This document shows positions 5,935 through 33,366 of a DNA stretch of 33,366 nt, piece after piece. Below the pieces are notes generated by a model. That model searched no databases. It was given only the letters and a program-made list of their open reading frames with translations, and was not told the DNA's origin. Both the position numbers and the translations under genes were made by a program. The DNA is from Bacteroidota bacterium. GTDB taxonomy: Bacteria > Bacteroidota > Bacteroidia > Chitinophagales > Chitinophagaceae. The stretch spans positions 1 to 33,366 of the forward strand of contig JAFDYA010000170.1 of the NCBI GenBank assembly GCA_018267675.1, given 5' to 3'. Positions within the stretch are counted from its first letter, which is position 1. Each line of letters begins with the position of its first letter.

Positions 5935-6921
5935 CTATGCATTGTGTAATTCACGGTGCGCGCTCATTTTTTTCAAAATTTGATGGGCTATATCCATGGC
6001 ATTATAGCCATCGTGTACGCTCACCCGGACTGGCTTATCCATTATGATTGCCTGAACAAATTCACTCAACTCTGCATTGATAGCATTGCTGGGCGCCACT
6101 TCGGGCATAGCCACCGAAATGATCTTCTTATCGCCATTGGCCAATTCAACTGGAAAGTCCAACATACCGCCCGGCATACCTTCCTCTTTAAGGCGGATGA
6201 CCTCCGTCTTCTTTTCCAGGAAATCAATACCGATATAAGCATCCCGCTGAAAGAGGCGGATCTTCCGCATTTTCTTTAGAGATAAACGGCTGGAAGTAAG
6301 ATTGGCAACACAGCCATTGTCAAACTCTATCCGTGCATTTGCAATATCCGCCGTATCACTCATCACCGATACCCCCGACGCAGAAATCCGCTTCACCGGG
6401 CTTTTTACCAAATGAAGTACCACATCTATATCATGAATCATCAGGTCCAGAATCACGGATACGTCTGTACCTCTAGGATTAAACTGCGCCAGCCGATGCG
6501 CTTCAATAAACATGGGTTGCAATGCCTGGCCTCCCAAGGCTAAAAATGCAGGATTGTACCGTTCCACATGCCCAACCTGACATTTCACACCGGCCTCAGC
6601 AACAAGAGTAACTAGCTCCTGAGCCTCCTCCATGGTATGCGCCAGTGGTTTCTCAATAAATAGATGCTTTCCCTTTTTCAACACCTGCTTTGCAATGGCA
6701 AAATGCGCTGTAGTAGAGGTAACCACATCTACAGCATCCACGGCATCTATTAGGGCATCCATGCTTTCAAAACGCGTCACCGGATATTGTGCCATTGCTT
6801 GTGCTGCGGCAGCATCATTCGGTTCATAAAAGCCAACAAACTGTGCTTGCTCCACCTGCAACCATTGCTGCATGTGAATTTTACCAAGATGGCCTGCGCC
6901 AAAAAGGCCTATTTTAATCAT
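5935..6921 (-). CDS. Gfo/Idh/MocA family NAD(P)-dependent oxidoreductase
   Basis: A cytoplasmic dehydrogenase or reductase of the Gfo/Idh/MocA family, which often acts on sugars or nucleotide sugars. Numbering from the chosen start (328 residues), the Rossmann motif GAGHLG is at residues 8-13, and the family EKP motif stands in HLFIEKPLAHT, the usual catalytic Lys. The His of MIHDIDVVLH is the likely catalytic general acid. The frame is open from an earlier ATG at 6945, which would add eight residues (MTIFSRNT) before the conserved first strand. I prefer the ATG at 6921 because MIKIGLFGAGHLG is the normal family beginning. The substrate is unknown. The gene is followed by a lipoprotein and a sugar transferase, so a nucleotide-sugar role is plausible. 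Confidence 0.88.
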   Translation of the reverse strand: MIKIGLFGAGHLGKIHMQQWLQVEQAQFVGFYEPNDAAAAQAMAQYPVTRFESMDALIDAVDAVDVVTSTTAHFAIAKQVLKKGKHLFIEKPLAHTMEEAQELVTLVAEAGVKCQVGHVERYNPAFLALGGQALQPMFIEAHRLAQFNPRGTDVSVILDLMIHDIDVVLHLVKSPVKRISASGVSVMSDTADIANARIEFDNGCVANLTSSRLSLKKMRKIRLFQRDAYIGIDFLEKKTEVIRLKEEGMPGGMLDFPVELANGDKKIISVAMPEVAPSNAINAELSEFVQAIIMDKPVRVSVHDGYNAMDIAHQILKKMSAHRELHNA

Positions 6922-6970
6922 AGTATTTCTTGAAAATATTGTCATTCACTGTGCGTGACGACATCGGGCT

Positions 6971-6978
6971 GCAAGATA
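6971..6978 (-). promoter_or_regulatory. Candidate -7 element before the Gfo/Idh/MocA gene
   Basis: On the minus strand TATCTTGC, followed by AG, lies about 50 bases upstream of the chosen start. It resembles the TATCTTCG elements found at several other genes here and is one base short of TAnnTTTG. The same 10-mer TATCTTGCAG recurs at 33132-33141. No -33 element is obvious. Confidence 0.25.
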
Positions 6979-7006
6979 CGTCTTGCCCGCGTTTCTTAGT
7001 GAAATA

Positions 7007-7696
7007 CTAATCCTCTACACTGTACACTCGTCCAGCGGCCACGATTAGATGATCTACCAATTGAATATCCATTAAGGCTGCTGCCTCTTTCAGCCGCTTC
7101 GTAATGTTCTTATCAGCTTGGCTGGGCACCGGATTCCCGGAGGGATGATTATGGGACAGTATCATCTTCACTGCCCCAAAGAGCAGTGCATTCTTCAGCA
7201 CCTTCCTAACGTCCACCACAGTACTGGTCAAGCCACCTACAGAGATGATTTCATGGCGAATCAGCATGTTTCCTTGATTAAGATACAGCACACAAAACGC
7301 TTCATGGTCTTTATCATTGAGCAAGGGAATCAGAATATCCGCTGCATCTTGTTGCTGCATTATCTTGGGCTTAGTCATGATATCGGCACTCTGCCGCCGC
7401 CTCCCCAACTCTAGTGCTGCTGCAATGGTGATTGCCCGCGCCTCCCCTATTCCGGGCAGCCGGGTAAACTCCTGAATACTGAGCCGCCCTAAATCCGAAA
7501 GGCTCCCATTTGCTTGCCCTAATACCAAACGTGCAATATCCAAAGCAGTCAACTTACGCGTACCACTATTAATTAGGATTGCCAAAAGCTCCGCATCCGT
7601 AAGCGCCTGGGGCCCTTTACTTGCCAGCTTTTCCCGAGGACGATCATCCACCGACCATTCCTTAATCGTTTGGCTACTACTATTGGGTTCACTCAT
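7007..7696 (-). CDS. radC: RadC family JAB/MPN-domain protein
   Basis: A 229-residue protein of the RadC (DUF2466) family. A helix-hairpin-helix segment (TRLPGIGEARAITI, about 78-91) is followed by a JAB1/MPN domain with the metal-binding motif SHNHPSGNPVPSQAD: His182, His184 and Asp195 are the expected zinc ligands. The N-terminus has the family pattern RPREKL and LTDAELLAILI. Length is normal. Despite the name, a direct role in DNA repair has been questioned and the biochemical activity is not settled. The start is an ATG. It is transcribed toward the oxidoreductase gene, with an 85-base gap. Confidence 0.93.
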   Translation of the reverse strand: MSEPNSSSQTIKEWSVDDRPREKLASKGPQALTDAELLAILINSGTRKLTALDIARLVLGQANGSLSDLGRLSIQEFTRLPGIGEARAITIAAALELGRRRQSADIMTKPKIMQQQDAADILIPLLNDKDHEAFCVLYLNQGNMLIRHEIISVGGLTSTVVDVRKVLKNALLFGAVKMILSHNHPSGNPVPSQADKNITKRLKEAAALMDIQLVDHLIVAAGRVYSVED

Positions 7697-8018
7697 GGTA
7701 TTGCCAATTTACTTCATCCTTTTCACAAAAAAAGAAACAAGGGGAAATAAACAAGAATCAAGCCAATATGGAGCACAGCAGGATTAAGTCAGCCAAATAG
7801 AGCCAGAACAAGGCTATTCATTTTTTTTTGGGGCGCATTTCCCGCTATACGTTCCAAGTCCCCTCACTCGTAGAGGAGGCCTGTCCTATAGCTTGTCGCG
7901 GCCTGCCCCCTCACTTGTTGAGGGGGGCTATCCACTACAATCGGGGCACCGGCAACACGCTGCGACAAGACCAATGATCCAGAAGAAAAAATCAAGGAAA
8001 CAGGAGGTTCCCGGGGAA
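7697..8018 (-). other. Intergenic stretch between radC and the TPM gene
   Basis: These 322 bases hold no credible gene. They form the 3' side of the lemA-TPM-TPM operon and the 5' side of radC (both minus). Visible features are a T-run at 7820-7829, the paired GC-rich hairpins and longer inverted repeat listed at 7859-7969, and a near-perfect palindrome at 8007-8019 (GTTCCC-G-GGGAAC) that touches the TPM stop codon. The TTTTTT run at the minus-strand equivalent of 7986-7991 could help end transcription, but it has no proper stem just before it. Confidence 0.6.
7859..7969. repeat. Clustered inverted repeats (two related hairpins within a wider inverted repeat)
   Basis: CCCCCTCA (7906-7913) and TGAGGGGG (7919-7926) form a perfect 8-bp stem with loop CTTGT. 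About 50 bases upstream a related unit, CCCCTCACTCGTAGAGGAGG (7860-7879), has the same spacing but a weaker stem, so the two look like imperfect copies of one short repeat. A second level of symmetry spans them: CTTGTCGC (7892-7899) is exactly inverted as GCGACAAG (7962-7969), and the likeness extends to about 12 of 14 positions. This could be a REP-like element or a structured 3' untranslated region of the TPM operon. Confidence 0.55.
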
Positions 8019-8831
8019 CTACCATCCACCACTGGCACCACCACCACCAAAGCTCCCTCCACCAAAGCCGCCGAAGCCACCACCACCACCAGAGCCGCCT
8101 CCCCAACCACCACTACCGCTTCCCCAGCCACTACCCATCATGCTCCCACCCAAGAAGCCGCCGCCAAAGCCACCCATACCGCCACGCCGACTCATATAAG
8201 TGCCGCTACCGCCGCCGCCATTGCCTTTCACGATAGCCACTAAGACAATTAGAATCACAAAGATGATAGCCAAGGTAACAAATGCACTCGTCGGGCTATT
8301 GTCCGACAGACTATCATTCAAGTATTCACCTTTTGTTGCCGCCATAACAGCGGTGAGGCCATTCCTAAAGCCTCGGTAATAATTTCCCTCCCGAAATGAA
8401 GGAGCCATTTCATTCCGAATGATTCGGCCACTTATCAAATCGGTCAAGGCTCCTTCCAGCCCTTTACCCACAGAAATATTGATCTTATGCTCCTTGATTG
8501 CGGCAAGGATGATCACGCCATTATTTCGCTTCTTTTGCCCGATGCCCCAGCGATTGCCCAACTGAGTTGCATAATCACTCACATCATAGTCGCCAATGCT
8601 CGTAATCGTAACTATTGAAATTTGGTTACTAGTGGAGTCGGCAAAAGCACGTGCTTTTTCTTCCAACATGGCTACTTCATCGGCACTCATTACGTGTGCT
8701 AGATCGTTCACCAAGCGCGGTGGCTGTGGCGTTGGGGGGAAATCACTGTCTTTCTGAGCAAATGCCCTAGGCGCCGCTAATAGCACCAACAGGAGTATTG
8801 CCCACCAAGCTTGCCTACAAAAGTTACTCAT
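8019..8831 (-). CDS. TPM-domain envelope protein with Gly-rich tail
   Basis: A 270-residue membrane-anchored protein of the TPM_phosphatase (YgcG-like) family. A signal peptide ends near AFA at residues 23-25. The TPM domain follows at about 36-160, with the conserved VNDLAHVMSADEV start and the NNGVIILAAIKEHKI core. There is a transmembrane helix at about 186-205, then a Gly/Ser-rich tail (FGGGSFGGGGASGGW at the very end) typical of this family. The domain faces the periplasm; some homologues have phosphatase activity, but the role is not settled and photosystem II homologues act in repair. The start overlaps the stop of the upstream TPM gene by 4 bases (ATGA), showing an operon with lemA. 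The Gly-rich tail makes strong spurious open frames on the other strand. Confidence 0.88.
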   Translation of the reverse strand: MSNFCRQAWWAILLLVLLAAPRAFAQKDSDFPPTPQPPRLVNDLAHVMSADEVAMLEEKARAFADSTSNQISIVTITSIGDYDVSDYATQLGNRWGIGQKKRNNGVIILAAIKEHKINISVGKGLEGALTDLISGRIIRNEMAPSFREGNYYRGFRNGLTAVMAATKGEYLNDSLSDNSPTSAFVTLAIIFVILIVLVAIVKGNGGGGSGTYMSRRGGMGGFGGGFLGGSMMGSGWGSGSGGWGGGSGGGGGFGGFGGGSFGGGGASGGW

Positions 8832-9280
8832 TTGCCAAATACAATTTCATCCGGTAGCTCATTCTTATCGATACCTACCTGATAAGGGAAGTGAGTGGCC
8901 AAAGCACTACCCAGCTCAGTAACACAGGCCACCAAGCCTTCCCCAATTTCATTAATGCTTAATTTCTCTTCCAACACTTTAGCAGCACGTTCCCAATAAG
9001 CCGCACCGCCCGTCCGCCGATATATCTCTTCATCTCCAAACAAGGCATATTGCTTATCCTTCAGGGCAATATAGATCAACACAGCATTTCGCTCGTCGGT
9101 ATGAGCCATTTGCAACTTTGCGAAGACTTGCTTTGCCCGATCCATCGCATCCATAAACTGGCAATGGCTTTCGACAAATACGCGAAGCTCCCCGCTTGTT
9201 TTGGCTTCAGAAGCCCTGATAGCAGCGACAACAGCAGCTTGTACTGAACTATCCAACAATGCCTTCTTCTGAAAAAACAT
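8828..9280 (-). CDS. TPM-domain protein, short cytoplasmic-type
   Basis: A 150-residue protein consisting almost only of a TPM domain (KTSGELRVFVESHCQ near the N-terminus, DERNAVLIYIALKDKQYALFGDEE in the middle). It has no signal peptide and no clear membrane helix. I chose the ATG at 9280 (MFFQKKALL) over an in-frame TTG six bases earlier because AAGGA lies seven bases before that ATG, one of the few good ribosome binding sites in the window. It lies between lemA and the long TPM protein and overlaps the latter by 4 bases. This three-gene order is common in Bacteroidota. The exact function is unknown; the module is thought to act at the envelope. Confidence 0.85.
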   Translation of the reverse strand: MFFQKKALLDSSVQAAVVAAIRASEAKTSGELRVFVESHCQFMDAMDRAKQVFAKLQMAHTDERNAVLIYIALKDKQYALFGDEEIYRRTGGAAYWERAAKVLEEKLSINEIGEGLVACVTELGSALATHFPYQVGIDKNELPDEIVFGK

Positions 9281-21311: not shown

Positions 21312-23342
21312 TTGCATTTGCGCTTTTTCTTCTGTCTTTTTTTGTTGCTTTCGCTGGCTATTTCACTTCCGGCGGTTGCTCAAATGCCCATCAATCCCAG
21401 CGATCCTGTAACCTTGCAGAATGCCCCACAGCGCGATACTACCAACAGAACAAATACAAAACATTGGCGTGATGAACCCGTGAGGATTTTCTACAAACGA
21501 GCGTTCAGTAATATTCAGCTAACTCCCGATACCGCATTACACAATTTTCAACGCCGCCCCTTCGTCCAGAATTGGTATCGCGATATAGGCAATCTGGGTA
21601 CACCACAAAACAACCAACTCTTCTTACCGGAAAACTTGGGCAATACCGGACTGAGCTTGGGCTACCACGTTTTTGACAAATATCGATTCAAGGCCGACAG
21701 CCTTTTGTATTATAACACTACCCGACCCTACACCGTATTTGACTATCAGCTCGGCTCCAAATTGGAGCAAACCCTTCGGCTATTACATACCCAGAACATC
21801 ACACCGGATTGGAATGTAGCCGTGCAATACCAAAAAATCGTCAGCCAAGGCTTTTATAAACTGCAACGCACGAACCATGATGCCGGTGCATTGAGTACCA
21901 ACTACAAAAGTGCTAATCAACACTATGAACTTTATGCCGCCATAGTGTACAACAAGGAACAGAGTGATGAAAATGGAGGAATATTAGGAGACAGTCTGCT
22001 GGATGAATCAAAATACAATGATCGCCTTACGATACCTGTTGCTTTAGACAATCCGTACTATAATGCTTCCAGCAGCGCTGGTCGCCGCTCCGCAATCACG
22101 AATGTGGATCGAGACTTTAATATCCTCCTGAATCACCAGTATATCATCGGCAGCCGTGACACAAGCTACAACTGGGATTCCACACAGTTTTCAGTGACCC
22201 TAGTTCCTAGATTTTCTATAAGACATCGGCTAGAACTCGGAGGAGAGAAACATACATTTAAAGATGTTGCTCCGGATTCGAGCTACTACGCATCCTTCTT
22301 CCAGCGCAGTTTTGGAAGCTCCGATTCTGTGTTTACACAACAGAACTGGCTTTGGGTGGACAACCAATTTTCCCTCCATGGTTTTCTAGGAAAAAAGGAA
22401 AGTCCATTTGCGGTGAGTGCCGGCATTGGCAATCGGGTTGACAATTTTTACACAGACTATATTGTCGGGAAAGAAACAAACAACAATATCACGAACTACC
22501 TATGTGGAAATATCAGTAAGGAAAGTATTGGAGAGCGTGCCTGGGGCTTTAGTGCCAATACAAAATTCGTTTTCTCCGGACCGGCAGTTGGCGATTTCCT
22601 ATTGAATGGTCAGGCATCTAAAGGGTTTGGAAACAGACTTGGACGGATTACTGTTGGCGCTACACAACAACTTAGCGCTGCACCTTATGCCTATACTATA
22701 TTTAGGAACCAATACTATTCCGAAACTTCCCACCTGAGCAAAGAGAGTATTACGCTTCTTTTTGGCAAAATCTCCAGTGCCAAATATGGTCTTGAGCTAG
22801 GGTTTAAGAACTACGTAATGGGCAACTATATCTACCTACAAGATTCCCTTGGAGGAGTATCGGATGGGCGATTAAAACCCCTCCAAGCAACCAGTCCGTT
22901 CAACCTTACACAGGTATCACTACACAAAGTCTTCCACTTTGGTCGTGTGGTATTGGACAATGATTTGGTCTATCAACAAGTGGCGGGAGCAGCACCGATA
23001 TCTGTACCTAGTTTGCTGGGGCGAAATGCACTTAGTTTTGAAAGTTATCTTTTCCGAAAGGCTTTAAAAATTGCGACCGGAGCTGAAATTCGCTACTACA
23101 CTTCGTATCAGGCAAACGGCTACAGCCCATTCTACAATCGTTTTTACTACCAAACCGCCTATAGTTCTAAAAGCAAGCCGGAGCTAAATCTGTTTTTCAA
23201 TTTCAAAGTAAAACGATTCCGTGCCTACCTGATGGCGGACCAGCTACAAACGCTCTGGTGGCGGAATACAGTGATACACCCCAACTATCCATCCCCGGAT
23301 CTCATGATCAGATTTGGGTTCAATTGGGTGATGGTCAACTAG
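21312..23342 (+). CDS. Putative outer-membrane porin (Porin_10 family)
   Basis: A 676-residue predicted outer-membrane beta-barrel. A signal peptide ends at AVAQ (residue 24). The mature protein is rich in aromatic and alternating residues, has GNLGTPQNNQLFLPE in its N-terminal part (a motif I associate with Bacteroidota putative porins), and ends in a typical barrel strand, LMIRFGFNWVMVN. The start is TTG at 21312, the codon right after the stop of the LVIVD gene; no ATG exists before the signal peptide. A TTG six bases later would also do. The substrate is unknown. It ends only 11 bases from the stop of the convergent ABC ATPase gene, leaving no room for a terminator between them. Confidence 0.85.
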   Translation: MHLRFFFCLFLLLSLAISLPAVAQMPINPSDPVTLQNAPQRDTTNRTNTKHWRDEPVRIFYKRAFSNIQLTPDTALHNFQRRPFVQNWYRDIGNLGTPQNNQLFLPENLGNTGLSLGYHVFDKYRFKADSLLYYNTTRPYTVFDYQLGSKLEQTLRLLHTQNITPDWNVAVQYQKIVSQGFYKLQRTNHDAGALSTNYKSANQHYELYAAIVYNKEQSDENGGILGDSLLDESKYNDRLTIPVALDNPYYNASSSAGRRSAITNVDRDFNILLNHQYIIGSRDTSYNWDSTQFSVTLVPRFSIRHRLELGGEKHTFKDVAPDSSYYASFFQRSFGSSDSVFTQQNWLWVDNQFSLHGFLGKKESPFAVSAGIGNRVDNFYTDYIVGKETNNNITNYLCGNISKESIGERAWGFSANTKFVFSGPAVGDFLLNGQASKGFGNRLGRITVGATQQLSAAPYAYTIFRNQYYSETSHLSKESITLLFGKISSAKYGLELGFKNYVMGNYIYLQDSLGGVSDGRLKPLQATSPFNLTQVSLHKVFHFGRVVLDNDLVYQQVAGAAPISVPSLLGRNALSFESYLFRKALKIATGAEIRYYTSYQANGYSPFYNRFYYQTAYSSKSKPELNLFFNFKVKRFRAYLMADQLQTLWWRNTVIHPNYPSPDLMIRFGFNWVMVN

Positions 23343-26457: not shown

Positions 26458-27324
26458 CTAGTCTAGGGAAAATTCCTGTTGCTTCATTACTTTGCCTGCT
26501 TCTGTGAGCCGAAGATAGTACAGTCCCTTTGGAGCATGCTCTGCTTTGAATTCGATATTGATTTTGTACTTACCCCGTTTCATCTCATTCTTTGCAAAGA
26601 CAGACTGGACAAGCTTTCCTTGCTCATTGAAAATGCCTAAATCCAAAATTGCAGTTTGTTCTTGCTGCCATTGCATCTGCGTAGCAATCTTCAAAACACG
26701 ATTTACAAAGGCAGCCTGCGCACCGCTGGTATCGATTCCATAAATCTTAAAAAACTTCGGTCGGCTTTGTCCTACCAATTTCTGCATAAAATCTAACAGT
26801 GCGAAGCTTTCCTTGGGACGATCAACATCAAACACCCCCTCCAGGTTATGAAAATCAGTCAATGCCCAGACGGCCTGCTGCCCCAGGAAATCCTGAAGTC
26901 GCTGGAGCCGGAGGTAATTCAAAAGCTGCTGCATGAGCGAATCTGCCTGGCCGATGTAATGAAACGGAATACTATCAGCTGGTGCAGCGGCATGAGCTTT
27001 GGCACAAAACGTGGCCAAATCAACCTCTTTGGTAGCATTTGCAGCAAGTGGAATAGTCTCATTACCTACACAGATCAGATCTTGGTAGTTGGTATCAATC
27101 GGACGGAAAAGCAAAGCTGGCTCCACTCGGATCAAGACCCCGCCTTTACTAAGATTGGTTAGCCTGACTTTCAAACCATTTCTCAAAAAAGACTGCCCAC
27201 TACCAATGGCCTCCAGCCTTACCAAACCCTCGCTGAGTGCTTGTTTCAACCCTCTTTTTTCGATAGCATTTCCGAAGTTGGGGCAGAGCAGCAAGAGAAA
27301 TATCAATACAAGGAAAAGGCGCAT
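26458..27324 (-). CDS. Secreted protein of unknown function with a C-terminal sorting-like domain
   Basis: A 288-residue exported protein. The signal peptide begins at the ATG at 27324 (MRLFLVLIFLLLLCPNFGNA). The frame is open far upstream, into the icd gene on the other strand, but that extension has no protein character; another ATG at 27378 is less likely. The central part has helical text (LMQQLLNYLRLQRLQDFLGQ). The last 60 residues (LDLGIFNEQGKLVQSV, then APKGLYYLRLTEAGKVMKQQ) resemble a type IX secretion C-terminal domain, though the usual YPNP start is missing. I do not recognise the main body. It is the first gene of a minus-strand operon and lies divergent from icd. Confidence 0.72.
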   Translation of the reverse strand: MRLFLVLIFLLLLCPNFGNAIEKRGLKQALSEGLVRLEAIGSGQSFLRNGLKVRLTNLSKGGVLIRVEPALLFRPIDTNYQDLICVGNETIPLAANATKEVDLATFCAKAHAAAPADSIPFHYIGQADSLMQQLLNYLRLQRLQDFLGQQAVWALTDFHNLEGVFDVDRPKESFALLDFMQKLVGQSRPKFFKIYGIDTSGAQAAFVNRVLKIATQMQWQQEQTAILDLGIFNEQGKLVQSVFAKNEMKRGKYKINIEFKAEHAPKGLYYLRLTEAGKVMKQQEFSLD

Positions 27325-27342
27325 GGCGTTATCGGCTTTTGA

Positions 27343-27350
27343 TAAATATA
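27343..27350 (-). promoter_or_regulatory. Candidate -7 element for the secreted-protein operon
   Basis: On the minus strand TATATTTA differs from TAnnTTTG only at the last position and lies 18 bases before the chosen ATG at 27324. It supports that start over the upstream ATG at 27378. Confidence 0.35.
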
Positions 27351-27353
27351 GCG

Positions 27354-27373
27354 TACCAAAGAAAACTTTGGTA
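27354..27373. promoter_or_regulatory. Perfect inverted repeat between divergent genes (possible operator)
   Basis: TACCAAAG (27354-27361) and CTTTGGTA (27366-27373) form a perfect 8-bp inverted repeat around AAAA. It lies in the 96-base gap between icd (+) and the secreted-protein operon (minus), just upstream of the minus -7 element. The symmetry and position fit a binding site for a dimeric regulator; there is no T-tract that would make it a terminator. Confidence 0.4.
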
Positions 27374-27403
27374 TTCATCAGTTTTTCAAAGGAAGCAAAA
27401 GCA

Positions 27404-27411
27404 TAAATTCG
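27404..27411 (+). promoter_or_regulatory. Candidate -7 element before icd
   Basis: TAAATTCG, followed by CGC, fits TAnnTTTG at all but one fixed position and ends nine bases before the icd ATG. The mRNA leader would be only a few bases long. Confidence 0.35.
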
Positions 27412-27420
27412 CGCACTTTT

Positions 27421-28692
27421 ATGAGCAACAAGATCACCATGGGGGCAGGTGGCCGCCTCAACGTTCCTAATCATCCAACAATCCCATTTATTGAAGGCGA
27501 CGGCATAGGGCCTGATGTCTGGAAAGCTACCAAAGCTGTACTCGACGATGCGGTGGAGACAGTGTACAAAGGACAAAGAAAGATTGATTGGGTAGAAATG
27601 CTTGCAGGAGAAAAGGCATTTAATGCTACCGGAGAATGGCTACCAGCAAAAACACTGGAGCTAGCGAAGGAATATCTTGTATCCATCAAAGGGCCTTTAA
27701 CGACACCGGTTGGCGGTGGTATTCGCTCGTTGAATGTGGCGCTACGTCAGGAATTGGATTTATACGTTTGCTTACGTCCGGTGCAATGGTTTCATGGTGT
27801 ACCCTCACCGGTTCGGCATCCGGAGCGTGTGAACATGGTTATCTTTCGGGAAAACACTGAGGATATCTATGCGGGAATTGAAGCACAGGAAGGCAGCGAG
27901 AAGGCTAAAAAATTGCTTCAGTTTTTACAGGACGAATGGGGCGAGGGTGGCAAAATAAGGTTCCCCGAGACTACCTCCTTCGGTATTAAGCCGGTAAGCA
28001 AGGATGGTAGCGAACGTTTGATTCGGGCGGCACTTCAGTATGCTGTGGAGAAAAAATTGCCCACTGTGAGCATTGTACACAAGGGGAATATCATGAAGTT
28101 TACTGAAGGTTCCTTTAAGAACTGGGGTTATGAATTGGCTGAGCGTGAATTTGGCGATAAAGTCTTCACTTGGGCGCAATGGGAAAAAATCAAAGCTGCT
28201 CAGGATGAAGATGCCGCTAACCAAGCATTAAAGCAAGCACAAGCCACTGGAAAGATTCTAGTAAATGATGTGATTGCCGATAATTTCTTGCAACAAATAC
28301 TGCTAGCCCCGCAAGATTTCTCTGTAGTAGCCACACTCAACCTCAACGGCGACTATATCTCTGATGCACTAGCTGCTGCTGTGGGGGGCATCGGCATTGC
28401 ACCGGGTGCAAATATCAACTACAGGACAGGCCACGCAGTCTTTGAGGCTACGCATGGCACAGCACCTCGTTTTGCCAATACGAATACCATGAACCCGAGT
28501 TCCCTAATCCTCAGTGGCGTGATGATGCTGGAATATATCGGATGGACTGAAGCTGCCGAAGTCATTCTAAAGGCTTTGAAAGAAGCAATCATGCGGAAAC
28601 GTGTAACCATAGATTTCTACAAACTGATGAATGATGCAACGCTACTGAAGACTAGTGAATTTGCCGAAGAATTAACTAAGAGCATCAAATAA
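27421..28692 (+). CDS. icd: Isocitrate dehydrogenase, E. coli-type homodimeric
   Basis: This enzyme oxidises isocitrate to 2-oxoglutarate and CO2 in the TCA cycle. The 423-residue protein has the family start [14 protein letters not shown], the substrate loop [13 protein letters not shown] (with the Ser that is phosphorylated in E. coli and the binding Arg residues), [13 protein letters not shown], the active-site [11 protein letters not shown], and the metal-binding [11 protein letters not shown] and [23 protein letters not shown] precedes the coenzyme pocket. Residues at the pocket differ from the E. coli NADP enzyme: Arg for Lys344, Phe for Tyr345, Met for Val351, Ile for Tyr391 and Lys for Arg395 (E. 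coli numbering). The NAD-type Asp is also absent, so NADP is likely but not proven. The start is an ATG. Confidence 0.95.
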
Positions 28693-28741
28693 TTTAGCTG
28701 TTTTAGTCGGCGTTCATTAAGCTGATGCCAACTTTATCCTG

Positions 28742-28758
28742 CTAGCTAATGAAGCTAG
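28742..28758. promoter_or_regulatory. Perfect inverted repeat next to the M1 peptidase promoter
   Basis: CTAGCT (28742-28747) and AGCTAG (28753-28758) are exact inverted copies around AATGA, ending three bases before the TATCTTCG element. It could be an operator or a short hairpin at the end of the icd transcript, but no T-tract follows. Confidence 0.3.
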
Positions 28759-28761
28759 AAA

Positions 28762-28769
28762 TATCTTCG
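28762..28769 (+). promoter_or_regulatory. -7-like element before the M1 peptidase gene
   Basis: TATCTTCG, the same octamer as before miaB and the GT4 gene, ends 25 bases before the TTG start of the peptidase. A leader of about 20 nt would result. Confidence 0.4.
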
Positions 28770-28794
28770 TAGCAAACAGTCCGAATAATTTCTT

Positions 28795-31700
28795 TTGAAA
28801 AAGACAGTCTGCTTGCTTTGGCTTTTGGGCATTTCATTGAATTGCCTCGGTAAAAAATACTTTCAACAGCATGTTGCGACCCAGCTCAATGTCCGACTGG
28901 ATGATCGCTTACATTTCCTTCATGGCTTTGAGCGTATTGTTTATACCAATAACGCCCCCGATACCCTTCATTACCTCTACTTCCACCTTTGGCCAAACGC
29001 CTATAGTAGCGACCGGACCACCTTTGCAGAGCAACAAGTAGCCCAGGGCAAAACGGACTTTTACTTTAGTCCGGCTGAAGACCGCGGCTATATTGACAGT
29101 CTAATTTTTGAAGTAAATGGCCGTCCGGTATCGGCTATTTCCGCACCTGGCATGCCGGATATCGCCAGGATTGATTTACCCAATGCGCTTGCCCCAAGCG
29201 CTTCTCTGGAAATAACTACCCCGTTCCGTGTTAAGATTCCAAAAGTCTTTTCCCGGATGGGTCATTCTAAACAGGCTTACTACATTTCGCAGTGGTTTCC
29301 TAAGCCGGCTGTTTACGACCAAAAGGGCTGGCACCCATTACCCTATTCGGACCAAGGAGAATTCTACAGCGAAATTGGTAGTTATGATGTACAGATCACC
29401 GTCCCCAAAAACTATGTTGTGTTGGCGACCGGCAATTGTCTGGACGAATCAGAAAACAAGTTTCTTGATAGCCTAAGTACCCTAAACTATAAAAATCTTG
29501 AAGAGCCAAAGTCTTTTTCAAAACGCTGGCGAGACAGTGTCAACCGCTTTCCCCAATCGTCCACTGAATTCAAAACGCTGCACTTCCGAGAAGATAATAT
29601 CCACGACTTTGCTTGGTTTGCAGACAAGCGGTATATCGTAAGGAAAGATACCGTCACACTGCCGGCCACAGCGGAATCTGGGGCACACAAAGTAACTATC
29701 TACACCGCTACGCTACCAGCTGATGCCTATTATTGGAAAGGAGCCACCGATGCGGTAAAGAAGACAATTAGCTATCTCAGTAATAAGGTCGGGCGCTATC
29801 CCTACAATACCGTAAAAGCTGTGGAAGGAGACATGAAAGCCGGTGGCGGCATGGAGTATCCAACAATCACGGTAATTGACCGGATGGCATCAAGAGCGTC
29901 CTTACAGCAAGTATTAGCACATGAAGTGGGGCACAACTGGTTTTATGGCATTTTGGCAAGCAATGAGCGAGATGATGCATGGATGGATGAAGGCATCAAT
30001 TCATTTTACGAACGCAAGATTACAACACAGCTAAAGGAGGAAACGGAACTTACAGAGCAACTCAATAATGCATTGATTGATGTTCTTTGTCTTAATGCGG
30101 GAGCTACTCATACCGACCAAGCATTATCCCTCACGGCTCATGAATATACCAAGGATAACTACGGCCTTGATGTGTACTACAAAACAGCTATGGTATTGCA
30201 ATGGTTGGAGGGATATATGGGGAAAGACAGCTTCAATAGCGCGATGCAAGCTTATTTCGATACTTGGAAGTTTCGCCACCCCTATCCCGAAGATTTTGCG
30301 CAGGTACTAAAGCAACATTCAGCCCGGCCATTGGACTGGTTTTTTGATGGTCTGCTCAAAAGCGACAAAGGGGTAGATTTTGGCCTGAAATCTGCCCGGA
30401 CAAAAGGCGGCCTTAGTTTCATTACAGTAAAAAACAATTCGGAATTTGCGGCACCGGTAAGAATTGACGCCTTCAAAAACGGGGTAAAAACGGACAGTAT
30501 TTGGTCGCTACCTTTCAAAGGAAAATCGACGCTTACATTTCCTGACAATGGTGCAGATTTTTGGCGCTTAGGCTCAGAAATACCGGACTATTACGGCTTC
30601 AACAACAAGCTTCGAACCTCCGGATTGTTTCGGAATGTCAGTTTCAAAATAAAGCCCGGAATAGGGCTAAGTAAAAAAGCAGATGCTGGACTCAATTTAC
30701 TTCCTGCAATCGGCTTTAATCTCTATGACGGCATGATGGCCGGAGCCTTGCTGCATAACCTATCCCTGCCACAACCACGCTTGCGCTATGCACTGGCTCC
30801 CCTGTATAGTTTTAGGGCAAAAGAGTTGGTGGGCGCCGGCTCCGTCGGCTATTGGTTCTATCCCTCAAGCCTTTTCCAGGAGATCATCCAGCAGCTCGAT
30901 TTTAAGTCCTTCCACTACGACAGTACCTCCCGGTTTATCAAGAGTACCCTGCGAGCGAGGTATATCAAGCTGGCACCTTCTATGTGCTTTGTTTTTAAGA
31001 ATGCATCCTTGCTTAGTCCTATCAGCCGTAGCTTACTTTTTAAATACTTTGCAATCTGGGAGAATGGATTTGACTTTAGGCTTGATGTCCGGGACAGCCT
31101 TTATAAACCTAGCCTTCGGAGCAATGAAGAAAGCAACTATGGTTTGGTTCGCTACAAATTTCGCAACGACCGAACCTTCAACCCCTACTCCTACACCCTG
31201 GAAGCCCAGCTAGGCAATACATTTTGCAAACTCAGTGCTGAGGGCCAAATCCGTATTGACTACAACAAAAAGAACAAAGCATTACAACTCCGCGCCTATA
31301 CCGGAAAATTCATTTCCATCCTGAATGATGATATAGCCAATTCGAGATACTGGCTAAGTTCAAGCTTTAACGCCAGCAATGACTATCTCTATGAAGGTAC
31401 TTGGATTGGACGAAGTGCTCGGGATGGCTTCGCCGCTCGTCAAATAGCCGTCCAGGAAGGTGGAAACAAAATCAGTACGCCCTACTATGGCTTCCCACTT
31501 GGGCGAAATGACGACTGGCTACTCGGATTCAACCTAAAATCTGATTTGCCCTTCGGGAAACTTCCGCTGCGCCTATACTTTGATTTGAGCACCTACGCTG
31601 ATGCAAAAAACATCAATCCTTCCGGCGATCGATGGCTGTATAGTGGCGGACTGGAAATCCATGCGCTTAAAGATGTATTACTCTTCCACATTCCCCTAGT

Positions 31701-31842
31701 AATGAGTCGCGACTATCAAGACTATTTCAATAGTATTTTCCCTGATAAAAAGCTAGCCAACAGCATATCCTTCTCCATTCAACTTCAGAATATCAACTGG
31801 CTCAAGACCACGACAAGCGGAATAAAATACTTCATGAACTAA
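28795..31842 (+). CDS. M1 family zinc metallopeptidase with C-terminal barrel-like domain
   Basis: A 1015-residue exported protein. The signal peptide is within residues 1-19. An aminopeptidase N-like beta domain follows, then a gluzincin catalytic domain with GGMEYP (351-356, the GAMEN-type exopeptidase motif) and HEVGH (376-380). The second zinc ligand is Glu399 in DEGINSFYE. A typical M1 enzyme ends near residue 600. Here another 400 residues follow that look like an outer-membrane beta-barrel: alternating aromatic strands, GFNLYDGMMAGALLHN and LFHIPLVMSRDYQ, and an end strand close to the C-terminus. The protein may therefore be a peptidase anchored in the outer membrane. The start must be TTG at 28795, since TAA is in frame at 28786-28788 and no ATG precedes the signal peptide. 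Confidence 0.87.
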   Translation: MKKTVCLLWLLGISLNCLGKKYFQQHVATQLNVRLDDRLHFLHGFERIVYTNNAPDTLHYLYFHLWPNAYSSDRTTFAEQQVAQGKTDFYFSPAEDRGYIDSLIFEVNGRPVSAISAPGMPDIARIDLPNALAPSASLEITTPFRVKIPKVFSRMGHSKQAYYISQWFPKPAVYDQKGWHPLPYSDQGEFYSEIGSYDVQITVPKNYVVLATGNCLDESENKFLDSLSTLNYKNLEEPKSFSKRWRDSVNRFPQSSTEFKTLHFREDNIHDFAWFADKRYIVRKDTVTLPATAESGAHKVTIYTATLPADAYYWKGATDAVKKTISYLSNKVGRYPYNTVKAVEGDMKAGGGMEYPTITVIDRMASRASLQQVLAHEVGHNWFYGILASNERDDAWMDEGINSFYERKITTQLKEETELTEQLNNALIDVLCLNAGATHTDQALSLTAHEYTKDNYGLDVYYKTAMVLQWLEGYMGKDSFNSAMQAYFDTWKFRHPYPEDFAQVLKQHSARPLDWFFDGLLKSDKGVDFGLKSARTKGGLSFITVKNNSEFAAPVRIDAFKNGVKTDSIWSLPFKGKSTLTFPDNGADFWRLGSEIPDYYGFNNKLRTSGLFRNVSFKIKPGIGLSKKADAGLNLLPAIGFNLYDGMMAGALLHNLSLPQPRLRYALAPLYSFRAKELVGAGSVGYWFYPSSLFQEIIQQLDFKSFHYDSTSRFIKSTLRARYIKLAPSMCFVFKNASLLSPISRSLLFKYFAIWENGFDFRLDVRDSLYKPSLRSNEESNYGLVRYKFRNDRTFNPYSYTLEAQLGNTFCKLSAEGQIRIDYNKKNKALQLRAYTGKFISILNDDIANSRYWLSSSFNASNDYLYEGTWIGRSARDGFAARQIAVQEGGNKISTPYYGFPLGRNDDWLLGFNLKSDLPFGKLPLRLYFDLSTYADAKNINPSGDRWLYSGGLEIHALKDVLLFHIPLVMSRDYQDYFNSIFPDKKLANSISFSIQLQNINWLKTTTSGIKYFMN

Positions 31843-31882
31843 GGGCGCTAGCACCACCAAGTGCACAATAGCCAAGGGGCAA

Positions 31883-31890
31883 TATCTTCG
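31883..31890 (+). promoter_or_regulatory. -7-like element before the GT4 gene
   Basis: TATCTTCG, followed by C, is the third exact copy of this octamer upstream of a plus-strand gene. It lies in the 71-base gap after the M1 peptidase stop and ends 23 bases before the TTG start of the glycosyltransferase. Confidence 0.4.
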
Positions 31891-31913
31891 CAAAAAGGCT
31901 CAACACCGTACCA

Positions 31914-33107
31914 TTGAAATCCATCCTTTTCCACGTCAACTCATTCCTGGCCGGAGGTATAGAGAAAGTACTGATCGAATTGCTCCGAGCAATGGATCCA
32001 AGCAAGTACGACATCCACCTGTCGATTGCGTACAATTTTGAAGAACAAGAGGTATTACTATCAGACATCCCGGCCAATGTGCAGGTGCACCATTTGCTCA
32101 ACGAAACCTGGTTGATGCAAGCACAAAAGAAGAAAAAGACCGGCAAGATTAGCTTGTTTGAAAAGCTATTTTCAGAACTAATCCTTCCTCCCTTTCGGAA
32201 ACGTGCACAGGCAAAGGCATTGAGAGAACTTTTAAAGACAATGGACATCGTCATTGACTTTGACACCACCTTGGGTCCGTTCTATAAACTATTCCAAAAC
32301 AAGAAAACTGCTGCATATTGCCATTTTAGTTTTGGGCAAAATTGGAACGGCAACAAGCGAAAATTGGACAAGCTAGCTGCTCGTCTGATGCACTACAATC
32401 GCGTGGTGATGCTTTGCAAAGAGATGCAGGATGAGACAGCCTTGCTCTATCCGCCTCTAGCACCTAAACTAGTCACTATCTACAACGCCCTCGACAAGGA
32501 TAGGATTCTCGAATTGGCCAAAGAACCTATTGACCAGAGTCAACTCCAAGGCAGGCCTTACATCGTATCCGTGGGTCGGCTGCATGAAGCACAGAAAGAC
32601 TTCACAACATTAGTGAAGGCCTATATTGACGCGGTACAACGCTTTCAGATTGAAGAGTACCTTGTGCTTGTTGGCTATGGCTCGGCAAGAGAAAGCCTTG
32701 AGCAACTAGCGCAGGATGCCGGACTTGCTGATCGGATCATCTTTACCGGTTTTCAGACCAACCCCTATAAGTGGATTGCTAACTCCAGCCTATTTCTATT
32801 CAGCTCAAAATATGAAGGGCTCCCTACCGTATTGATTGAAGCAATGATCCTGGATAAGCCCATCATCGCAACAGCCTGCCCTACGGGTGTAAAAGAACTG
32901 TTGATGAATGGTGCAGCCGGGATACTTACCCCCGTAGGTGATAGAATCGCGATGGCAAATGCCCTGAACGAACTCTTAAAAAATGAGCGATTACAAATTA
33001 AATTCAGCGAGGCAAGAGCAGCATTTCTACAGCATTTTGAGCCCAAATACATGGTCAGTAGAGTGGAATCATTATTGATTGAAAACAGTGAGGTACTGCA
33101 ATCTTAA
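31914..33107 (+). CDS. Glycosyltransferase family 4 protein
   Basis: A 397-residue GT-B fold transferase that moves a sugar from an activated donor to a growing glycan, probably at the cytoplasmic face of the inner membrane. The N-terminal Rossmann domain begins SILFHVNSFLAGGIEKVLIELL, typical of the family. The C-terminal donor domain starts near YIVSVGRLHEAQKDFTTLV and contains VGYGSARESLEQLA, IIFTGFQTNPYKW and the EX7E-type motif EGLPTVLIEA with the donor-binding Glu residues. Donor and acceptor are unknown. The start is TTG at 31914: the text matches the family beginning from there, and the first in-frame ATG would remove the first strand and helix. It could act in exopolysaccharide or LPS synthesis. 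Confidence 0.91.
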   Translation: MKSILFHVNSFLAGGIEKVLIELLRAMDPSKYDIHLSIAYNFEEQEVLLSDIPANVQVHHLLNETWLMQAQKKKKTGKISLFEKLFSELILPPFRKRAQAKALRELLKTMDIVIDFDTTLGPFYKLFQNKKTAAYCHFSFGQNWNGNKRKLDKLAARLMHYNRVVMLCKEMQDETALLYPPLAPKLVTIYNALDKDRILELAKEPIDQSQLQGRPYIVSVGRLHEAQKDFTTLVKAYIDAVQRFQIEEYLVLVGYGSARESLEQLAQDAGLADRIIFTGFQTNPYKWIANSSLFLFSSKYEGLPTVLIEAMILDKPIIATACPTGVKELLMNGAAGILTPVGDRIAMANALNELLKNERLQIKFSEARAAFLQHFEPKYMVSRVESLLIENSEVLQS

Positions 33108-33131
33108 CACTGGCTTAGGTTAGTTGGCCTA

Positions 33132-33139
33132 TATCTTGC
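33132..33139 (+). promoter_or_regulatory. Candidate -7 element before the last gene
   Basis: TATCTTGC, in the 10-mer TATCTTGCAG, lies 16 bases before the ATG of the partial gene. The same 10-mer occurs on the minus strand at 6969-6978 before the Gfo/Idh/MocA gene. It is one base short of TAnnTTTG. Confidence 0.25.
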
Positions 33140-33154
33140 AGGCATCATTTCGGG

Positions 33155-33366
33155 ATGCGAGTTCAACGCCATTTTTTTCAGGTCATGTCAATCCTGATCC
33201 TGCTTGCAGGAGCGGCGGCTTTCCAAATTCATTCGCATAAATTAAAAAAAGTTCGAACCACGGCCATCTCAACGGCCTGTACTTTGGAAGAACATTACCA
33301 ACATGACAGCTCACCGGTAGCCAAGACGGCATCCCACCAGAAGCAGCCTTTCGGGAAGCAACAATC
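33155..33366 (+). CDS. Small secreted or membrane protein of unknown function (5' part, cut by window end)
   Basis: The frame opens with an ATG at 33155 and stays open for 70 codons to the edge. It begins with a short basic segment (MRVQRHFFQ) and a hydrophobic stretch (VMSILILLAGAAAFQI) fitting a signal peptide or membrane anchor, then a polar, His- and Lys-rich region with one Cys. A second ATG at 33185 (MSILILL) could also start it. I do not recognise the family. It lies 47 bases behind the glycosyltransferase with a -7-like element between them, so it probably has its own promoter. Partial length makes the call tentative. Confidence 0.5.
   Translation, partial: MRVQRHFFQVMSILILLAGAAAFQIHSHKLKKVRTTAISTACTLEEHYQHDSSPVAKTASHQKQPFGKQQ

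Follow-up and report, generated by a model that had tools for sequence, protein, structure and literature searches.

The window considered here, a stretch of 33,366 nucleotides from a Chitinophagaceae genome (contig JAFDYA010000170.1 of assembly GCA_018267675.1), carries at positions 28795-31842 of the forward strand a gene that encodes, in one open reading frame (ORF), an M1 family peptidase followed by a predicted outer-membrane barrel of the Omp85 type. The ORF has a TTG start and no internal stops, and its product comprises 1015 amino acids (aa). The protein is a variant of the enzyme-plus-Omp85-barrel kind, and its family includes an unexpected branch that is catalytically dead. It is probable that the M1 domain is anchored by the barrel so as to face the periplasm, that it is active in the window's lineage, and that it has a scaffold role beyond catalysis. 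An initial annotation had proposed that the gene encodes an M1 peptidase whose own barrel holds it at the outer membrane, and this proposal is supported.

The peptidase half was recognized by both sequence and predicted structure. Pfam PF01433 (Peptidase_M1) matched residues 319-518 (E 1e-21), and M1 peptidases were among the matches listed for the full-length model with Foldseek and VIA-align, the latter aligning 388-508 residues with Z scores of 26.9-30.7. Conservation was followed in a 78-row alignment (A2) obtained by searching genome contigs for the patterns QW[YF]PKPAV and NERxx[PA]W[ML]DE, a scan that is blind to copies without the motif. At least 593 stretches were returned, a relative being encoded in 589 of them; only the 80 best were retained, and hence full-length coverage is partly selected. 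These 80, each with a matching ORF, span Chitinophagaceae, Saprospiraceae, Flavobacteriales, Bacteroidales and Hymenobacter among others, with two labelled Chlorobiota; leaving out four cut by contig ends, counting one locus as two tandem copies and adding the window's protein gave the 78 rows. Residues H376, E377, H380, E399, E354, and Y461 were identical in 78/78 sequences (window counted) and likewise in 28/28 of a second alignment (A1) gathered without a motif pattern. By comparison with M1 enzymes, Y461 is probably the catalytic tyrosine. The GXMEN motif reads GGMEYP, its Met and Glu being present in 78/78 and its Asn replaced by Tyr in 78/78. In the window's lineage the M1 domain very probably works as a zinc exopeptidase. 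The HEVGH, Glu399 and GGMEYP elements pointed out in the initial annotation were confirmed at residues 376-380, 399 and 351-356; its catalytic part, however, had been drawn up to about residue 600 and ends instead near 522, with an all-beta, immunoglobulin-like (Ig-like) domain at 529-592.

The C-terminal half was modelled with AlphaFold2 both within the full-length protein, using the 78-sequence alignment (mean predicted local distance difference test score, pLDDT, 92.0; predicted template-modelling score, pTM, 0.89), and as residues 600-1015 alone (pLDDT 91.5, pTM 0.88); the values of the full-length model suggest a defined placement of the two halves. By count, residues 631-995 form 16 strands, the hairpin at 759-774 being taken as a loop and the last strand being short in the model. 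When the barrel alone was submitted to Foldseek, 49 of the 50 best rows belonged, by their titles, to the Omp85 superfamily, with BamA, Sam50, CdiB and TamA in the top rows and a best E of 3.3e-7; FhaC was also among the superfamily structures matched. With VIA-align all 50 rows did so if two plant TOC rows and 5ayw are counted as members (Z 18.3 to 14.8, 256-300 residues aligned). In both barrels the aligned ranges begin close to the first residues and stop close to the last; the top row was 7e4h_A (Z 18.3, root-mean-square deviation (rmsd) 6.5, 299 residues aligned), and BamA of Bacteroidota was represented by 9hiv_A (Z 16.0) and 9n2f_A (Z 15.4). A viral fold library gave no barrel match at E 0.001, its best row having an E of 4.7e-3. 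The linker at 529-592 resembles M1 domain III and has no helices, indicating that it is not a POTRA domain, and the models contain no M1 helical C-domain. The long loop between strands 11 and 12 occupies the place of loop 6 in BamA; within it D863, R873 and Q883 were identical in 78/78 sequences, and a [D/E]GGFK-like stretch is conserved at 888-892 (EGGNK in the window). The barrel is of the Omp85 type by its predicted fold, and the protein is not filed as a canonical Omp85 member. The barrel that had been suspected in the C-terminal part was borne out by two confident models, which are neither helical nor composed of soluble beta domains; of the accompanying comparison with BamA-like barrels, the likeness of fold held, a match to a curated Omp85 profile did not, and the barrel starts near residue 631.

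A number of observations weigh against this interpretation. The barrel match is one of fold only, at approximately 10% identity, with Foldseek TM-scores mostly of 0.38-0.46 by query length and large rmsd, and with VIA-align rmsd of 4.3-6.7; the odd Foldseek row out (row 49, 4n4r) is one that we take to be LptD, not an Omp85 protein. Across the 78 members, 14 Pfam families gave a match at E 0.1, none of them an Omp85 family (DUF5686 matched 2/78, best 1.9e-4). A POTRA domain is missing, residues 523-630 being without the POTRA helix pair in the model, and the VRGF/Y motif that characterizes loop 6 of Omp85 proteins (PMC12611786) is present in that loop in 0/78 members. Seven [LVIA]RG[YFW] matches within the family were rejected as candidates for it; they align with residue 833 in strand 11, outside loop 6. 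With regard to the enzyme, reading GGMEY for GXMEN renders aminopeptidase specificity uncertain, and the conservation of E399 and of Q166-V173 is partly selected because the scan patterns cover both. Furthermore, the model alone cannot say which side of the membrane holds the M1 domain, and no experiment on the M1-barrel family was found in the literature searched.

The fusion is more than a chance joining, as relatives at 31-56% identity over both halves keep the two in one frame, many of them as a whole protein of approximately 1000 codons; some match was obtained in 59/59 genomes of the relatives search. A profile of the barrel matched 34/198 genomes of the phylum at E 0.001, all 34 lying, by listed kinship, within the window's class or closer; no match was obtained in 15 listed genomes of the class or in the remaining 149, of which 5 were listed and 144 placed outside the class from list order. 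The 35 matches have frames of 927-1055 codons except for one broken gene, with a frame of 501 and one stop. In the broken gene (L215, G052:C45; L164), the barrel part is split off into a frame of its own of 376 aa. Within the family designated f24 the barrel gene was found in 79/80 genomes, and within f23 in 32/40, with one match per genome except in two f24 genomes that have two; that f24 and f23 are Flavobacteriaceae and Weeksellaceae, respectively, is our guess only. The M1-barrel architecture is therefore widespread in the window's class of Bacteroidota.

Many of these proteins have lost the catalytic residues. Among 30 loci of the barrel search, 12 have HEXXH-X18-E and 17 lack it, the remaining one being the broken gene; in the 17 the M1 region can still be aligned. 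Among 35 regions with flanks, 8 are active, 26 are intact without any HEXXH and one is broken. All 20 regions drawn from f24 proved dead, the other six dead copies being four from f24 and two from f23, and the motif was thereby read in a sample of copies (24 f24 and 2 f23 flanked regions, plus the shorter loci). Of the active-site residues of the window's protein, H376, E377 and Y461 are each retained in 0 of the 26 dead copies, H380 in 3, and E354 and E399 in 1 each; 19 copies have Asp at the position of E399. They are nonetheless homologous to the active proteins over their full length, as a profile comparison gave an E of 5.5e-123 over 901 columns; Pfam M1 still matches 13/26 of them at E 0.01 (best 4.7e-7), and the position of R873 in the barrel loop is Arg in 23/26. 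A tree was built from the barrel only with 69 rows, namely 26 dead and 43 active copies (the window, 34 taken at random from the 77 other rows of alignment A3, and 8 flanked active copies), the broken copy being excluded. A single branch with SH-aLRT support of 100 set all the dead copies apart, in what was a quick tree with several long branches flagged. The active site is ancestral in M1, and loss is thus the natural direction of change. Retention of the whole protein without catalysis provides the strongest hint of a scaffold function beyond cutting. The initial annotation had foreseen neither the dead clade nor how common the architecture is in the class.

The explanation judged probable above would operate as follows. 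From the fold and the signal peptide we infer that the protein inserts into the outer membrane, where the 16-strand Omp85-type barrel would sit as an integral protein. The M1 metallopeptidase would lie on the N-terminal side of the barrel, joined to it by the Ig-like domain, which would stand in place of both the POTRA domains and the M1 helical C-domain. Should the topology be that of BamA, the N-terminal end of the barrel would be periplasmic and hence the M1 domain too, which would then hang from the outer membrane on its periplasmic side. There, the enzyme would trim the N-termini of peptides or unfolded polypeptides beside the barrel; the conserved role would include binding of peptides or proteins at this site, with catalysis kept only in some lineages. 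That the role includes binding is probable because a whole clade keeps the protein near-universally with its active site erased.

It is possible, if somewhat unlikely, that the barrel does no more than anchor, or provide a pore for, a periplasmic enzyme that scavenges peptides, with the dead clade representing a side branch recruited for an unrelated task. The strict conservation of the active site throughout the active set, in both alignments, would agree with this, as would the existence of M1 proteins without a barrel: those of related genomes have frames of approximately 614-698 aa, too short for a barrel, and match residues ~18-570, and further M1 matches without the barrel part were seen in other phyla (a plasmid collection, partial matches only). 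Polar residues that are conserved in the barrel and in loop 6, together with the retention of the full protein after catalysis was lost, suggest instead that the barrel is more than an anchor.

Alternatively, the barrel may have kept an Omp85 job, making the protein an accessory factor in the assembly or quality control of outer-membrane proteins, with the M1 fold as a polypeptide receptor replacing POTRA and trimming only where the active site persists. This is considered unlikely. Consistent with the notion are the Omp85 fold found by Foldseek and VIA-align, the conservation of loop 6 residues in both active and dead sets, and the occurrence of the gene, near-universal and nearly always single-copy in f24 and common in f23. 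A further point in its favour is a PF00149 gene, which we read as LpxH (lipid A), found downstream in 23/81 loci of the active set, 20 of them within 1.5 kb. In the same set a gene for a redoxin/DUF4369 lipoprotein lies upstream in 25/81 loci (23 within 1.5 kb). Among the dead copies, 22/27 loci have uvrA (so named by our reading) and likewise 22/27 a PF03641 gene. All these counts are lowered by the many loci that stop at contig edges. As the neighbours differ between the two sets, there is no common operon, and the linkage to LpxH may be mere synteny. Also opposed to an Omp85 job are the absence of POTRA and of VRGF/Y in loop 6, and the precedent of PlpD, whose Omp85 scaffold serves another function (PMC11116518). 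The redoxin/DUF4369 and PF00149 neighbours are often only a few bases away, as with L057:4841-5962 (+) and L069:9021-9770 (+).

A broader form of this idea is rather unlikely, namely that M1-Omp85-type proteins would constitute a separate class of outer-membrane factors, in which the M1 fold replaces POTRA as the receptor for polypeptides at a BamA-like barrel, and that takes part in assembling outer-membrane proteins or in their quality control in the window's class of Bacteroidota, with the peptidase dispensable and turned into a pseudopeptidase in one large clade.

The main rival on placement is a surface location as in AaaA, in which the M1 domain would reach the outside by way of its own barrel, either through it or past it, or with the help of another exporter, and would digest outside peptides for nutrition. 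Many Chitinophagaceae secrete hydrolases. AaaA is not known to be an M1-plus-Omp85 protein. A precedent is nonetheless provided by AaaA of Pseudomonas aeruginosa, an aminopeptidase whose own barrel ties it to the outer membrane; it differs in being a cell-surface tethered, arginine-specific autotransporter (PMC3426542). PlpD-type proteins, moreover, were still counted among the autotransporters in a 2019 review (PMC6555100). Surface display is nevertheless distinctly unlikely: in Omp85 proteins, which the barrel resembles, the N-terminal domains are located in the periplasm, the surface model of PlpD was contradicted by later experiments (PMC11116518), and nutrition would not be served by a catalytically dead clade. 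Neither does the protein carry a signal for the type IX secretion system (T9SS), no sorting domain (TIGR04183 / PF18962) being found in it at E 1 with Pfam and NCBIfam; a T9SS cargo, with which the initial annotation had drawn a contrast, was thus rejected, although the same genome encodes the T9SS component SprA. That the C-terminal 400 residues are an M1 helical C-domain or soluble beta domains, with no barrel, is extremely improbable given two confident models with long barrel strands and fold searches that return outer-membrane barrels, even though this part of the window's protein has no match to a barrel family in Pfam, NCBIfam or PHROGs (for residues 536-1015, Pfam gave two rows under the cut-off, and NCBIfam and PHROGs none).

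Among known systems, PlpD is similar in that its 16-strand Omp85 barrel is preceded by an enzyme domain, which is located in the periplasm (PMC11116518, PMC4104836), but it has a patatin-like domain and one POTRA where an M1 peptidase and an Ig-like linker are found here without POTRA. The protein is therefore not of type Vd (PlpD-like), which combines patatin, POTRA and barrel. The 'Metallo' subfamily of Omp85 proteins likewise combines a metal-enzyme domain with the lack of POTRA, that domain being PF00149 (in Pfam, calcineurin-like phosphoesterase) as opposed to an M1 peptidase (PMC4104836). As this 'metalloprotease' subfamily is defined by PF00149 (PMC4104836), the protease label, repeated in PMC11116518, may be a misnomer. 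BamA, Sam50 and TamA share the barrel fold, by structure search, and the long loop between strands 11 and 12, but possess the POTRA domains and VRGF/Y that are both missing here. The M1 fold and zinc site are shared with 6koy of Deinococcus radiodurans and with F3 (1z1w), which as two-domain/soluble M1 peptidases differ in having no barrel. Domain III is present in F3 as well.

A second M1 protein is encoded in the same genome (contig C2, L119:2764-6072, reverse strand, 1103 aa), in which the M1 domain is followed by a long C-terminal part with LRGY and FADAG, which we take to be Omp85 barrel motifs. LRGY was found in 20/24 sequences related to this protein, which is itself conserved in relatives (L121-L142). 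Comparison of profiles for the window's barrel and the LRGY-type barrel gave a weak match (40 columns, E 0.0079, probability 5%), and searches of both profiles against PDB sequences gave nothing useful. Judging by these motifs, M1 plus an Omp85-type barrel may occur in two forms, with the contig C2 protein as the second.

The Omp85 superfamily has been described as having at least one POTRA domain (PMC11116518), while a 2014 survey took the barrel as the defining feature and listed ten bacterial subfamilies, some without POTRA (PMC4104836). An M1 peptidase fusion is absent from the ten subfamilies in the subfamily section of that survey, and words beginning with 'peptidase' or 'aminopeptidase' occur 0 times in its text. 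A 2026 review counts at least 12 Omp85 members with one to seven POTRA domains (PMC13067283), and the only peptidase named in passages of PMC9874225 is a Peptidase M16. No account of an M1-Omp85 fusion was found in the literature searched, which is weak evidence as most subscription papers lie outside its reach. Most of the Omp85 barrels characterised so far serve either to build outer membranes or to carry proteins across them. The natural series of active and dead versions offers a clean test of cutting versus holding polypeptides at the outer membrane, and genes of no assigned function in many genomes gain a concrete hypothesis.

Features of the M1-barrel gene in the window, and its orthologues without the zinc motif
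Feature	Location	Strand	Basis
Whole gene, M1 peptidase - Ig-like domain - Omp85-type barrel (predicted folds)	28795..31842	+	Stop included; ORF and full-length model
Probable signal peptide, residues 1-~20	28795..28854	+	Helix 2-17 in model; N-termini judged by eye
M1 N-terminal beta domain, residues ~22-300	28858..29694	+	Model secondary structure; M1 fold matches begin at residue 22-25
M1 catalytic (thermolysin-like) domain, residues ~301-522	29695..30360	+	Pfam 319-518; VIA-align Z 26.9-30.7 to M1 structures
GGMEYP, residues 351-356	29845..29862	+	E354 in 78/78
HEVGH zinc motif, residues 376-380 (H376-H380)	29920..29934	+	Sequence and 78-row alignment
E399, third zinc ligand	29989..29991	+	HEXXH-X18-E spacing
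Y461, probable catalytic tyrosine	30175..30177	+	Identical in 78/78
All-beta Ig-like domain, residues 529-592	30379..30570	+	Full-length model and fold matches
Predicted 16-strand Omp85-type barrel, residues 631-~1003	30685..31803	+	Two models and two fold searches
66-residue loop between strands 11 and 12	31318..31515	+	Model and alignment
Orthologues with the same barrel without HEXXH	L160-L163, L165, L167-L175, L177-L179, L183-L203, L212-L214, L216, L217

A lipoprotein reading of the leader was rejected, since its C17 lacks a good lipobox and most relatives, read by eye, show none. Positions 27348-33366 of the window correspond to positions 1-6018 of contig C161 of the same assembly at 91% identity, with the same neighbours. 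The match starts with the very first base of C161 and stops with the window's last, so that C161 more probably represents a strain variant in the metagenome-assembled genome than a duplicated gene, and a second paralogue was rejected. A tandem pair of M1-barrel genes was observed in Phaeodactylibacter xiamenensis (L058:3002-5974 and 5986-9030, both forward). Elsewhere in the window, an ORF on the reverse strand at 26458-27576 has a weak match, under the cut-off, to the T9SS sorting domain PF18962 (E 0.0015), and a 676-aa ORF at 21312-23342 (+) encodes another outer-membrane barrel, matching Pfam Porin_10 (PF14121) with an E of 5e-93.

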